The position numbers and the translations under genes are program-made. Below, piece by piece: positions 22,426 to 24,697 of a stretch of 64,000 bases of DNA. Location: assembly GCA_030683815.1 (NCBI GenBank), contig JAUXPJ010000017.1, positions 1 through 64,000 of the forward strand, given 5' to 3'. Source of the DNA: Flavobacteriaceae bacterium. Lineage in GTDB: Bacteria > Bacteroidota > Bacteroidia > Flavobacteriales > Flavobacteriaceae. Position 1 is the first letter of the stretch. Each line of letters starts with the position of its first letter. The notes under the pieces are model-generated. The model made no database searches. It saw only the letters and a list, made by a program, of their open reading frames with translations, and had not been told where the DNA came from.

Positions 22426-22444
22426 TTCGGTAAAAATTAAATCT

Positions 22445-22525
22445 ACTAACCTTTAATTTTTTAACTAATCTTAATTCTGACTAACCTTTAAAAATCTACT
22501 AACCTTCTTAAAAACTAACCTTTAA
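22445..22525 (-). repeat. Five-copy ACTAACCTTTAA motif array in a 3' untranslated region
   Basis: Copies start at 22445, 22464 (variant ACTAATCTTAA), 22480, 22498 (variant with an inserted CTT) and 22514, at spacings of 19, 16, 18 and 16 bases. In the transcript they read TTAAAGGTTAGT. They lie between the stop codon of the first 51-residue peptide and its terminator. A single related copy lies in the same position after the second peptide gene. Confidence 0.75.
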
Positions 22526-22572
22526 ATTCAAATATAATATAACAATGAATTTCACTTAAATAAACAAAACAA

Positions 22573-22728
22573 TTAATAAATCAAACACTGTTCTGGCTGC
22601 ACTATTCCCCCCGATTTATTTACATAAGTAAAATTTGGCGATAGCGAATTGATCAAAGTTCTCCCTGTTGAAATACCATTTGCATGAACTTTAGATTTTG
22701 CGGCGTTGTTTGAAACATTTGTTTTCAT
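22573..22728 (-). CDS. 51-residue Cys-tailed peptide, paralogue A, function unknown
   Basis: I choose the ATG at 22728, which follows the leader CCCCAAAAGATT and gives 51 residues; the longer open frame runs through the promoter and operator. The C-terminal half, RTLINSLSPNF then YVNKSGGIVQPEQCLIY, matches paralogue B (23077-23232) almost residue for residue, whereas the N-terminal 22 residues differ apart from MKT and the AKS at 10-12. Equal length, a conserved core and a near-terminal Cys suggest a real product. It has no signal peptide or membrane segment. A modified or secreted peptide is possible; no maturation enzyme is adjacent. Confidence 0.7.
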   Translation of the reverse strand: MKTNVSNNAAKSKVHANGISTGRTLINSLSPNFTYVNKSGGIVQPEQCLIY

Positions 22729-22762
22729 AATCTTTTGGGGTGTTTGTTTTGTTTTTACGGTG

Positions 22763-22793
22763 TAAATGTAATATAATAAAATACTAAAAACAA
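22763..22793 (-). promoter_or_regulatory. Promoter of peptide gene A
   Basis: On the minus strand TTG (22791-22793), a 20-base spacer and TACATTTA (22763-22770), one mismatch from TAnnTTTG. The geometry is the same as the promoter at 23950-23980, including the sequence CCGTA just after the box. Confidence 0.65.
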
Positions 22794-22812
22794 GAAAAAA
22801 AGTAATTATTTT

Positions 22813-22854
22813 ACCATTCATTATAAAAAAGACACCATTCATTATAAAAAACAC
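22813..22854. promoter_or_regulatory. Two tandem 21-bp operator-like repeats, copy 1
   Basis: Two adjacent 21-bp direct repeats sharing ACCATTCATTATAAAAAA (22813-22833 and 22834-22854). They end 19 bases upstream of the TTG of promoter A. The 21-bp period is two DNA turns, as expected for a dimer binding one face, for example a LytTR-type regulator. Related repeats occur at the same distance from promoter B. Confidence 0.7.
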
Positions 22855-22960
22855 GCATATAATATTTTAATAACTATTTAGGGAGGTTTTTGCATATTGG
22901 CAGTAAATTAAGATAACAGTTACTTTCAGATTTTAGGTGTTGGGTACTTTTTAAAAATAA

Positions 22961-22991
22961 CGAAGAGCACTTTTATACCTAGTGCTCTTCG
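22961..22991 (-). terminator. Hairpin ending the second peptide unit
   Basis: Perfect 10-bp stem CGAAGAGCAC/GTGCTCTTCG with an 11-base loop, followed on the minus strand by TTATTTTTAAAAAG. It lies 85 bases after the stop of paralogue B. Confidence 0.7.
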
Positions 22992-23009
22992 ATAAAAAAA
23001 ACTAAAATT

Positions 23010-23020
23010 ACTAACCTTTA
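23010..23020 (-). repeat. Single ACTAACCTTTA motif after the second peptide gene
   Basis: The same motif as the five-copy array at 22445-22525, here once, between the stop of paralogue B and its hairpin. Confidence 0.6.
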
Positions 23021-23076
23021 TTTTGATACGTTTTTAATTCAAATAATACAATGAATTATGATCTACAATAGTTGTA

Positions 23077-23232
23077 TTAATACAAACAACATTGTTCAGG
23101 GTGCACAATACCGCCAGATTTATTCATGTAGAAAAAATTAGGTGATAAAGAGTTAATCAAAGTTCTTTTTGTATCGGAATTGATTCTTAGAAAATTTGAT
23201 TTTGCGGGGTGGTTTAATCCTATTGTTTTCAT
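23077..23232 (-). CDS. 51-residue Cys-tailed peptide, paralogue B, function unknown
   Basis: A 51-residue frame from the ATG at 23232 to TAA at 23077. The sequence begins MKTIGLNHPAKSNFLRINSD and ends RTLINSLSPNF, FYMNKSGGIVHPEQCCLY. It has the same length as paralogue A, with about 24 of the last 29 residues identical. Conserved positions are RTLINSLSPNF, Y, NKSGGIV, PEQC and the final Tyr. It lies 50 bases downstream of a CAP-domain lipoprotein gene and is probably cotranscribed with it from the promoter near 23950. Function unknown. Confidence 0.7.
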   Translation of the reverse strand: MKTIGLNHPAKSNFLRINSDTKRTLINSLSPNFFYMNKSGGIVHPEQCCLY

Positions 23233-23282
23233 AATTTTTTTGATTTATATATTGTTTTCGCAATAATAATATTGTTGATTTT

Positions 23283-23771
23283 TTATCTTCCTATAAAAAT
23301 TTGAGTGTAATAATTACTTCCAGTCGCATTTTGTTTAGCAGAAACTCCCATGAATTGTACAGATGGATTTTCAATATTTTTTCTGTGAAGTTCACTGTTT
23401 AACCAGGCGTTCATTAAACTCTCCGCTGTTGTATAACCGGCTCCAACATTTTCTAATACTACTTTGGCATTAGCTGTTGTCATTAAATTCCTGCTTCTAA
23501 CTTCAAAATTATCATGACTTATCTTTCCTTGATCAATCATATATTTTGTGTGACCAGAAGCTTCCGTGTAAGCTGGTGTTAAAACGGATACTCTTGTTAA
23601 TCCTAAGGTTTCTCTGTGAATGTTAACCAAAGCTAAAATTTCGGTTTCCAATCCGGTAATGTTTACTGTTTCTGTAGCAGTAAGGGTTTCAAAACCATCA
23701 TCATCTTTAGAACATGCTGTAAAAGAAATGGCAATGAATACTAGGGCTAGAATTTTAATTGTTGTTTTCAT
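23283..23771 (-). CDS. CAP-domain (SCP/PR-1-like) lipoprotein, copy 1
   Basis: A 162-residue protein with a lipoprotein signal (AISFTACSK, Cys at about residue 20) followed by a CAP domain. Expected cavity residues are visible: His in SGHTKYMID, His in KISHDNFEVRS, Glu in VLENVGAGY and His in NSELHRKNIENP. It resembles the YkwD-type bacterial CAP proteins, whose activity is unsettled. A second copy of the same length lies at 24209-24697. It is 146 bases downstream of a promoter paralogous to that of peptide gene A, and upstream of peptide gene B. Confidence 0.88.
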   Translation of the reverse strand: MKTTIKILALVFIAISFTACSKDDDGFETLTATETVNITGLETEILALVNIHRETLGLTRVSVLTPAYTEASGHTKYMIDQGKISHDNFEVRSRNLMTTANAKVVLENVGAGYTTAESLMNAWLNSELHRKNIENPSVQFMGVSAKQNATGSNYYTQIFIGR

Positions 23772-23887
23772 ATCTTTTGGGATGATTATGAATTATTATT
23801 AAATTTTTTATTTAAAATTTAAGTTCGATACAAAACACTTAAATTGATTGTTCTCTTTCTATCTTAATCTTCAAATCGAAACCAACT

Positions 23888-23920
23888 TCATTTTTTAGGG
23901 ATACAAGAAGTTGTTTTCAT
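23888..23920 (-). CDS. Ten-residue leader peptide or relic (MKTTSCIPKK)
   Basis: ATG at 23920 and TGA ending at 23888. Promoter, leader and the first three codons (ATGAAAACA) match those of peptide gene A, but the frame stops after ten codons. It may be a leader peptide for the CAP lipoprotein transcript or a decayed copy. Translation is not proven. Confidence 0.3.
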   Translation of the reverse strand: MKTTSCIPKK

Positions 23921-23949
23921 AACCTTTGGGGTGGGTTACTTATACGGGA

Positions 23950-23980
23950 CAAATATATGTCACAAAAAAACAAAAAGCAA
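23950..23980 (-). promoter_or_regulatory. Promoter of the CAP lipoprotein-peptide B unit
   Basis: TTG (23978-23980), 20 bases, then TATATTTG (23950-23957), a perfect match to the Bacteroidetes consensus. The text after the box, CCCGTATAAG, resembles that of promoter A. Confidence 0.8.
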
Positions 23981-23999
23981 GAAAAAATTGAAAAAAATT

Positions 24000-24041
24000 A
24001 CTATTCATTATAAAAAACGCACCAACCATTAGTAAAAACGC
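24000..24041. promoter_or_regulatory. Two tandem 21-bp operator-like repeats, copy 2
   Basis: Two adjacent 21-bp units (24000-24020 containing ACTATTCATTATAAAAAACG, and 24021-24041 containing CCATTAGTAAAAACGC). They end 19 bases from the TTG, exactly as in copy 1. They share the AT-rich core and CGC or CAC ends with copy 1. Confidence 0.65.
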
Positions 24042-24208: not shown

Positions 24209-24697
24209 CTATTTTCCGATAAATATTTGTGTGTAATAATTGCTGCCCTGAGAATCTTTCTGAGCAGATATCCCCATATATTGTACTTCAGGATTCTCTA
24301 TAACTGCCCTATGAGAAGCACTATTAAACCATTGTTTCATTACACTTTCTGCAGTTAAATAACCTGCAGCAACATTTTCTAAAATAACTCTTGCTGAAGA
24401 TCCAGCCATTAAGTTTCTACTTCTGATATCAAAATTATCATGGCTTGTTTTACCTTGTTGAATCATATATTTTGTATGATTTGTAGCTTCTGTATATGGT
24501 TGATTTAATGTGGATACTTTATGAAGACCAATACTTTCTCTATGAAAATTTACTAAAGACAAGATTTCATTTTCTAAACTATTAAAATATACTGCTTCAA
24601 TATTTACAGTTTCAAAATCATTGTCATTTTTATTACATGAAAGTAAAAAACAGGTAATAGAAAGTAAGACTATTAAATTAATGGTTGGTGATTTCAT
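24209..24697 (-). CDS. CAP-domain (SCP/PR-1-like) lipoprotein, copy 2
   Basis: A 162-residue paralogue of the copy at 23283, with a signal ending TCFLLSCNK (lipobox Cys near residue 21). CAP residues are retained: ATNHTKYMIQ, KTSHDNFDIRSRNLM, ILENVAAGY and NSASHRAVIENP. The tail SNYYTQIFIGK is nearly the same as in copy 1. The two look like a tandem duplication that then diverged. No copy of the 21-bp operator is seen upstream. Its promoter is unclear; it may be read from purE or from the small frame just upstream. Confidence 0.87.
   Translation of the reverse strand: MKSPTINLIVLLSITCFLLSCNKNDNDFETVNIEAVYFNSLENEILSLVNFHRESIGLHKVSTLNQPYTEATNHTKYMIQQGKTSHDNFDIRSRNLMAGSSARVILENVAAGYLTAESVMKQWFNSASHRAVIENPEVQYMGISAQKDSQGSNYYTQIFIGK

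Follow-up and report, generated by a model that had tools for sequence, protein, structure and literature searches.

A LytTR two-component system and a kinase-adjacent small RNA as candidate regulators of CAP-lipoprotein and small-peptide cassettes in Flavobacteriaceae

The window analysed here, a stretch of 64,000 nt of DNA from a member of the Flavobacteriaceae, raises the question of what two very small genes encode and what controls them. A sequence-only reading had pointed to two frames of exactly equal length, 51 residues each, with a common C-terminal block and a divergent N-terminal part, had taken them as paralogues and had placed them in an AT-rich patch together with two CAP lipoprotein genes. 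This description is borne out: both frames are on the minus strand, their products are 63% identical (E 6.8e-14 in a search within the own genome), the successive kilobases between 22 and 25 kb of the window have GC contents of 0.264, 0.293 and 0.254, and the two lipoproteins match the CAP superfamily model PF00188 with 53.3 and 52.6 bits (E 6.1e-14 and 1e-13) against a gathering cut-off of 21.1. Peptide 2 is a listed 51-residue ATG frame, and peptide 1 corresponds to the ATG-started last 51 codons of a 93-residue GTG frame; we preferred the 51-residue start because the longer front part overlaps the promoter and the direct repeat, and stop codons interrupt it in one of four genomes. Pairwise dN/dS ratios among four genomes of the same genus (the own genus) were 0.02-0.15 for the C-terminal 28 codons (11 of 12 pairs; one pair was dS-saturated) and 0.07-0.70 for the first 23 codons. 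The C-terminal half of the peptides is under strong purifying selection, far from chance. The earlier reading had let its case depend on homologues elsewhere and on a coding signature; relatives were indeed found in other genomes, and the C-terminal dN/dS is low.

Convincing relatives, which were sought in 299 and 397 genomes of the family and in one scan of genome contigs (16 loci), came from three genera only: the own genus (Flavobacteriaceae MAGs), Lutibacter and a further one, g4. Iterating a profile search across the collected loci yielded 37 distinct peptides, and one more came from locus L216, for a total of 38. Most copies share the core [IL]-N-[TS]-[LI]-x-P-x-F-x-[YFW]-x-N, which is followed mostly by x-x-G and then often by P-x-x-C-x-[LI]-[LY]; a motif like HLK[VLI][IV]K is found near the N-terminus of many Lutibacter copies. 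A hydrophobic stretch of signal-peptide strength is absent from all 37 (best 15-residue mean 0.8, compared with 2.4 for the lipoprotein), and the peptides have no signal-peptide-like or transmembrane segment. Neither window peptide matched a Pfam, NCBIfam or PADLOC model, and the structure prediction, for the most part of low confidence, shows a short hairpin at the C-terminus (mean pLDDT 60, pTM 0.31). The proposal of an unfamiliar paralogous family with conservation in its C-terminal half stands, but a near-terminal Cys and a GG do not hold as family traits: Cys occurs within the last eight residues in 24 of the 37 peptides and not in the other 13. Across 395 genomes of the order, only weak matches (E 5e-4 to 0.01) appeared outside the own genome, and these were discarded because they were partial and mostly in long or broken frames; weak matches in G127, G210, G256 and G280 and in G004, G132, G304 and G326 were likewise discarded. 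Two further candidates were rejected, namely a defence system, since PADLOC gave no match to the peptides, and cargo of a mobile element, peptide 1 having no match in phage records, plasmid records or viral contigs.

The peptide genes keep characteristic company. A CAP-lipoprotein gene lies directly upstream on the same strand, at 9-93 nt, in 21 of the 38 copies; in another four the CAP gene is 267-554 nt upstream, and three of these are peptide 1 copies with peptide 2 in between; eight copies occupy a purE/M3-peptidase site with no adjacent CAP gene, two follow another gene and three are at contig edges. One Lutibacter MAG (L045) carries three CAP-peptide pairs in tandem. The two window lipoproteins, whose lipoprotein signal was recognised by eye, resemble CAP/YkwD-type lipoproteins in domain and signal and fall below the NCBIfam cut-offs for YkwD and DalA; we found no description in the literature of a peptide partner for lipoproteins of this type. 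The sequence-only reading had also stated that no maturation or export genes adjoin. This holds in the window, where the ten neighbours scanned (glutaminase, DsbD, TilS, a chorismate-binding enzyme, PurE, PurK, GreA, a HIT protein, a HisKA-type kinase and one without a match) are all housekeeping or unrelated, but calls for a qualification at other loci: among 19 loci, an M3 peptidase gene stands beside the cassettes or the purE site in five, a MacB/FtsX-type permease gene two genes away in four, and M16 peptidase genes in one; a NamZ gene is near in four. These peptidase and permease genes look like common genomic positions.

Some features of the cassette surroundings are recorded here in their own right. 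The peptides beside purE, ahead of the M3 peptidase gene and with no adjacent CAP gene, lack Cys (L047, L054-L056, L119, L120, L125). Lutibacter cassettes are followed by one to three copies of a hairpin element in which TTGTCGTCCCCACAACGGTAGTAT forms part of a longer inverted repeat (L045, L073, L076, L077, L079, L120 and others). On the minus strand of the window, AAGGTTAGT repeats occupy 3' regions, about four behind peptide 1 (22441-22530) and one behind peptide 2 (23009-23020), and a TPP riboswitch (RF00059) lies at 2595-2683, also on the minus strand.

Table 1. Genes and predicted control elements of the peptide cassettes in the window
Feature	Position	Strand	Basis or remark
Peptide 1 gene, 51 aa	22573..22728	minus	ORF listing, homologues, dN/dS
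Predicted sRNA-binding site CACCCCAAAAGATT, abuts peptide 1 start codon	22729..22742	minus	14 nt exact complement
Peptide 1 promoter, -7-like element TACATTTA	22763..22770	minus	one off TAnnTTTG
LytTR-type direct repeat AATGGT-N15-AATGGT, upstream of peptide 1	22813..22839	minus	0 mismatches
Hairpin behind peptide 2, likely terminator of lipoprotein 2-peptide 2 unit	22961..22992	minus	sequence
Peptide 2 gene, 51 aa, 50 nt behind CAP lipoprotein 2	23077..23232	minus	ORF listing, gene-order count
CAP-domain lipoprotein 2, 162 aa, first cassette gene	23283..23771	minus	PF00188
Predicted sRNA-binding site, abuts lipoprotein 2 start codon	23772..23794	minus	CCCAAAAGAT exact, further pairs
Second predicted sRNA-binding site AACCCACCCCAAAGGTT, near 5' end of lipoprotein 2 leader	23921..23937	minus	
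Promoter of lipoprotein 2-peptide 2 unit, -7 element TATATTTG	23950..23957	minus	sequence
Degenerate LytTR-type repeat GTTGGT-N15-AATAGT, upstream of lipoprotein 2	24000..24026	minus	
CAP-domain lipoprotein 1	24209..24697	minus	PF00188; repeat and sRNA site not found

Most cassette promoters contain a direct repeat of LytTR type with a period of 21 bp. Both promoter elements of the window (Table 1) were measured against TAnnTTTG, which we take to be the flavobacterial -7 consensus. With at most one mismatch, the repeat occurs within 400 nt upstream of 15 of 26 CAP genes and of 10 of 448 other genes (Fisher P 2e-15, a value that ignores kinship among the copies). The ten non-CAP carriers include four LRR proteins and two proteins that look alike, one of them with a borderline T9SS tail (26.9 bits, cut-off 27) and the other without a Pfam match. 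The copy before lipoprotein 2 has 0 and 1 mismatches in the two sister genomes. The reverse complement of the repeat is TACCATTT, and its sequence and period fit the LytTR layout; the available text of PMC4847170 describes LytTR sites as two repeats of 9-11 nt with spacers of 11-13 nt. Repeats with LytTR spacing upstream of its members mark the set as a predicted LytTR regulon, of which CAP lipoprotein 1 is probably not a part. A single-site pattern is unspecific in the own genome, with 362 matches compared with 265 for the control. Two further occurrences of the repeat were seen. In L126, L127, L128 and L129 it accompanies a gene for an LRR protein of about 280 residues, divergent from a deacetylase gene that is presumably bshB1-like, and in one Lutibacter genome three copies lie just downstream of a second LytTR regulator gene (L117, 8711-9559).

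The same repeat is found at a sensor locus. In five Lutibacter genomes it closely follows an operon that encodes a LytTR regulator (PF00072 and PF04397) and a histidine kinase (7TMR-DISM and His_kinase), and in four of these it is ahead of porZ. In the own genus, the region near porZ (L173, L175, L176) holds three paralogous kinases of this domain type in tandem, one LytTR regulator and one receiver-only protein (domains from L173); the repeat is present behind kinase 2 in G000 and G354 and absent there in G181. The kinase end is flanked by the repeat in G119, G033 and G218 as well. At E <= 1e-60 the kinase was detected in 13 of 249 genomes of the family, and the five genomes of this sample that are known to carry the peptide (G000, G181, G003, G047, G238) are among them. 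We count against our main reading that the other eight kinase genomes have no convincing peptide (best match E 0.058, discarded), and also that six genomes encode 5-9 LytTR proteins each.

A conserved RNA element adjoins the kinase. It ends in an intrinsic terminator, and most copies have a promoter like TATATTTG. It was found in Lutibacter, its complement was then noticed in the cassette leaders, and the own-genus version was sought on that basis and found beside kinase 3 in three of three genomes. The predicted RNA is about 75 nt long in the own genus and longer in Lutibacter, and exposes a U-rich GGGG loop; the common core has two hairpins, and the Lutibacter and g4 copies have an extra 5'-side stem, GUCAAGAGGGGUUUUGAC. 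When the own genus was left out and a model was made from the remaining 13 copies, its three best matches in 198 kb were the own-genus copies, with E-values, which are rough, of 4e-8, 6e-8 and 4e-7, the next match being at 0.099. At the Rfam 15 gathering scores there was no match in five loci, and in four of them nothing to E 0.5; the own-genus RNA gave five sub-threshold matches, the best of them NrrF with 27.4 bits against 60. No copy was found in the stretch searched in four of the 13 kinase genomes (G119, G138, G177, G218). An ORF runs through the RNA in some Lutibacter copies, and because it is not present in all of them we treated the element as non-coding.

The alignment comprises 16 copies, taken from 15 genomes; in it, 95.6% pairing is seen for hairpin I, and the terminator stem has changes on both sides. 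Hairpin I shows one-sided changes only, with no pair changed on both sides, which we count against the main reading. In a count over the whole structure the terminator stem was 46% paired and sliding by one column scored higher on covariation, because the stem was out of register in that count; RNAalifold placed it better. Folded as single sequences, the G003 copy lacks hairpin I and the G002 copy has it shifted. The repeats before the own-genus RNA are degenerate (2-3 mismatches) and reversed, and this too counts against the main reading. As to its surroundings, the next gene is convergent in G033, G113, G002 and G237, and the RNA is therefore free-standing there; in Lutibacter and the own genus it lies ahead of a same-strand gene, so that attenuation is possible in these. 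Promoter, terminator and conserved complementarity to several mRNAs fit a putative trans-acting sRNA, free-standing only in the four genomes named.

In the own genus, the RNA carries AAUCUUUUGGGGUG, and CACCCCAAAAGAUU stands immediately before the AUG of peptide 1. Among the 61 start regions of the window, the predicted duplexes of peptide 1 (-23.5 kcal/mol) and lipoprotein 2 (-22.3) rank ahead of all others, the next being -17.4. When 6392 stretches from both strands of the window were compared, the best was 23881-24000 in the lipoprotein 2 leader, within which the second predicted site lies; the peptide 1 score is equalled at three places that have no relation to the cassette (seven of the 6392 stretches). 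Peptide 2 has no RNA site of its own (-7.6) and would be controlled through the operon. Beside the second predicted site, the lipoprotein 2 leader also contains a short upstream ORF, ATGAAAACAACTTCTTGTATCCCTAAAAAATGA (23888-23920), which is absent in the sister genome L068.

Outside the RNA gene, the exact 12-mer ACCCCAAAAGAT occurs six times in three own-genus genomes, five times within 10 nt before a start codon, four of these being cassette genes. In G000 it stands at peptide 1 and, at a distance of 8 nt, ahead of a CsbD-like gene; the other places are lipoprotein 2 and peptide 1 in G354, and lipoprotein 2 and one position inside a coding region in G181. The CsbD-like gene (62 aa, PF05532; L263, 1501-1709, own genome), with a 14-nt complement of the RNA just before its start, is a further predicted target. 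A degenerate form of the 12-mer gave 46 matches, compared with 18 for a reversed control, over eight genomes, with no clear excess in G000, G269 and G399 (4/3, 3/3 and 4/4). Of 18 places with the degenerate pattern outside the own genus, among 30 loci, ORFs contain 11, RNA genes account for four, two stand ahead of starts (in one case that of a CAP gene), and the last fits none of these. The pattern with which the own-genus RNA was sought has further matches at L173 +13074, where it lies in the complement of the kinase 3 leader, near a tRNA in L129, and at the window targets. For kinase 3, the predicted site in G000 reaches -24.9 with a 41-nt core and -21.5 with a 28-nt core; the values elsewhere are -20.2 and -12.7 in G181 and -13.6 in G354.

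Leaders and RNA were also compared between genera. The own-genus leaders of peptide 1 and lipoprotein 2 pair better with their own RNA than with the Lutibacter core in seven of seven cases, whereas the Lutibacter core is the better partner for 13 of 17 Lutibacter lipoprotein leaders; none of 2000 shuffles was as good as the real pairing for each of four targets. By these comparisons, the RNA and its predicted targets change together between genera. In a ranking over 11 genomes, eight of 18 recognised CAP genes and five of 24 peptide genes beat every other gene, ranks that are conservative because some CAP genes were counted as other genes. A clear exception is G047, which has the kinase and the RNA, yet three of its lipoprotein leaders pair poorly. 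With the CCCC exposed in its loop, the TTGTCGTCCCCACAACGGTAGTAT hairpin behind the Lutibacter cassettes could form a kissing contact with the GGGG loop.

Taking into consideration the repeat enrichment, the sites at the kinase locus, the conservation of the RNA, the target ranks, the co-change and the co-occurrence of kinase and peptide, we think it probable that a two-component system drives the cassettes together with an sRNA that tunes their translation, and that the peptides are small partners in one CAP-lipoprotein regulon. To judge from the domains, the 7TMR-DISM, LytS-type histidine kinase would act on the LytTR regulator, which, given the common sites, would bind the 21-bp-period repeats before the cassettes and beside the small RNA gene. 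The GGGG loop would then pair with the C-rich leaders, in the own genus where these adjoin the lipoprotein 2 and peptide 1 start codons, and such pairing, as complementarity and co-change suggest, may limit or tune translation. It may do so through an effect on the entry of ribosomes, in the manner of GibS, which acts at start regions in Bacteroides (available text of PMC7366714). With the same regulator driving both the RNA and its targets, the arrangement would form a feed-forward loop that caps or pulses the cell-surface output. The peptide most likely acts with the lipoprotein or as a feedback ligand of the kinase.

What the peptide itself does can be read in several ways. It is a real possibility, if short of an even chance, that it assists the CAP lipoprotein in an envelope response, as a small partner or chaperone in the cytoplasm or periplasm, as would suit the CAP gene directly upstream in 21 of 38 copies, the CsbD-like gene (PF05532) as another predicted RNA target and the repeat ahead of secreted-looking LRR proteins; however, no CAP gene adjoins the eight copies without Cys near purE, and the structure model, at a mean pLDDT of 60, shows no confident globular fold. 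The peptide might instead leave the cell by export or release, perhaps with processing at its C-terminal half, and act as an autoinducer that the linked 7TM kinase senses, in an agr-like fashion without AgrB. The LytTR regulator, membrane kinase and adjacent RNA are as in agr, three kinase paralogues accompany two peptides in the own genus, the kinase is present in the five sampled genomes known to carry the peptide, the N-terminal part of the peptide changes fast, and M3 peptidase and MacB/FtsX-type permease genes lie near some cassettes. We nevertheless regard this role as doubtful: AgrB was found in none of six genomes, albeit with a weak control search, the window neighbourhood has neither exporter nor protease, none of 37 peptides has a signal-peptide-like segment, Cys is not universal and eight kinase genomes have no convincing peptide. 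The corresponding complete circuit, an agr-RNAIII-like one in Bacteroidota in which the 7TM kinase would sense the peptide and, through the LytTR regulator, a kinase-adjacent sRNA would pair at the peptide and lipoprotein start codons and close the loop on the signal, is in our estimate slightly more doubtful still. Still, a signalling role for the peptides, which the earlier reading had brought up, plausibly gains weight from the predicted kinase, LytTR and RNA control.

That the peptide matures into a modified natural product of ribosomal origin or a bacteriocin, with the lipoprotein as immunity protein, seems very unlikely. Small size, a variable front half with a conserved back half, and the HLK[VLI][IV]K-like motif near the N-terminus of many Lutibacter copies would be in keeping with it, but the conserved half sits where a variable core is expected, no precursor family matched, and no modification enzyme was found among the 10 window neighbours and 10 proteins of other loci scanned; with no family match and no such enzyme, a RiPP or lanthipeptide precursor was rejected. 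The RNA, too, has an alternative explanation, namely that it is a transcription attenuator of the next gene, not a trans-acting sRNA, and that its complementarity to the leaders is coincidental. In several Lutibacter genomes the RNA precedes porZ, and in the own genus kinase 2, and it ends in a terminator, which would agree with this; the convergent next gene in G033, G113, G002 and G237, the co-change with the targets and the positions of the exact complement in the own genus make it unlikely.

The layout of the predicted kinase, LytTR and sRNA circuit would work like agr-RNAIII but does not appear to be agr: AgrB was not found in six of six genomes, a result of moderate weight given that the control search matched in one of 14 genomes, none over the cut-off, and Cys is not universal, 13 of 37 peptides lacking it near the end where agr signal peptides have a ring-forming Cys or Ser. 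The G-rich RNA loop and C-rich targets seen here are presumably the reverse of RNAIII. The peptide genes lie away from the kinase operon, the kinase is of the 7TMR-DISM/His_kinase type, and the phylum is different. Common to both, as far as the agr facts in the available text of PMC3673130 go, are a LytTR regulator, a membrane kinase and an adjacent RNA acting on the translation of surface or secreted proteins, together with a small peptide gene, here with a near-terminal Cys in some copies. Trans-encoded sRNAs, as proposed for the RNA here, are already described in Bacteroidota: GibS pairs at the start regions of mRNAs and represses them (available text of PMC7366714), and Rfp18 is a conserved flavobacterial sRNA that affects metalloprotease mRNAs (available text of PMC9723704). 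The named targets of both differ from those proposed here, and LytTR is absent from the main texts of PMC7366714 and PMC9723704 as available; Rfp18 may be the same RNA as the one described here. The E. coli systems YpdA/YpdB and YehU/YehT likewise combine a LytS-type kinase with a LytTR regulator and two-repeat sites; their site sequence is another, and the available text of PMC4847170 mentions no linked RNA or peptide.

Among the titles and abstract openings searched, we found no description of a kinase/LytTR/sRNA/lipoprotein-peptide circuit; the single parts are of known kinds, and their combination and the Bacteroidota setting were not found in print. The available text of PMC7366714 indicates that only a small number of trans-acting sRNAs in Bacteroidota have defined targets, and that Bacteroides has no obvious Hfq or ProQ. 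Here the RNA, the likely transcription factor, the sensor and the targets can be named together from sequence, with the co-change between genera as internal evidence; a new peptide family thereby gains a regulatory context, so that its function becomes testable.
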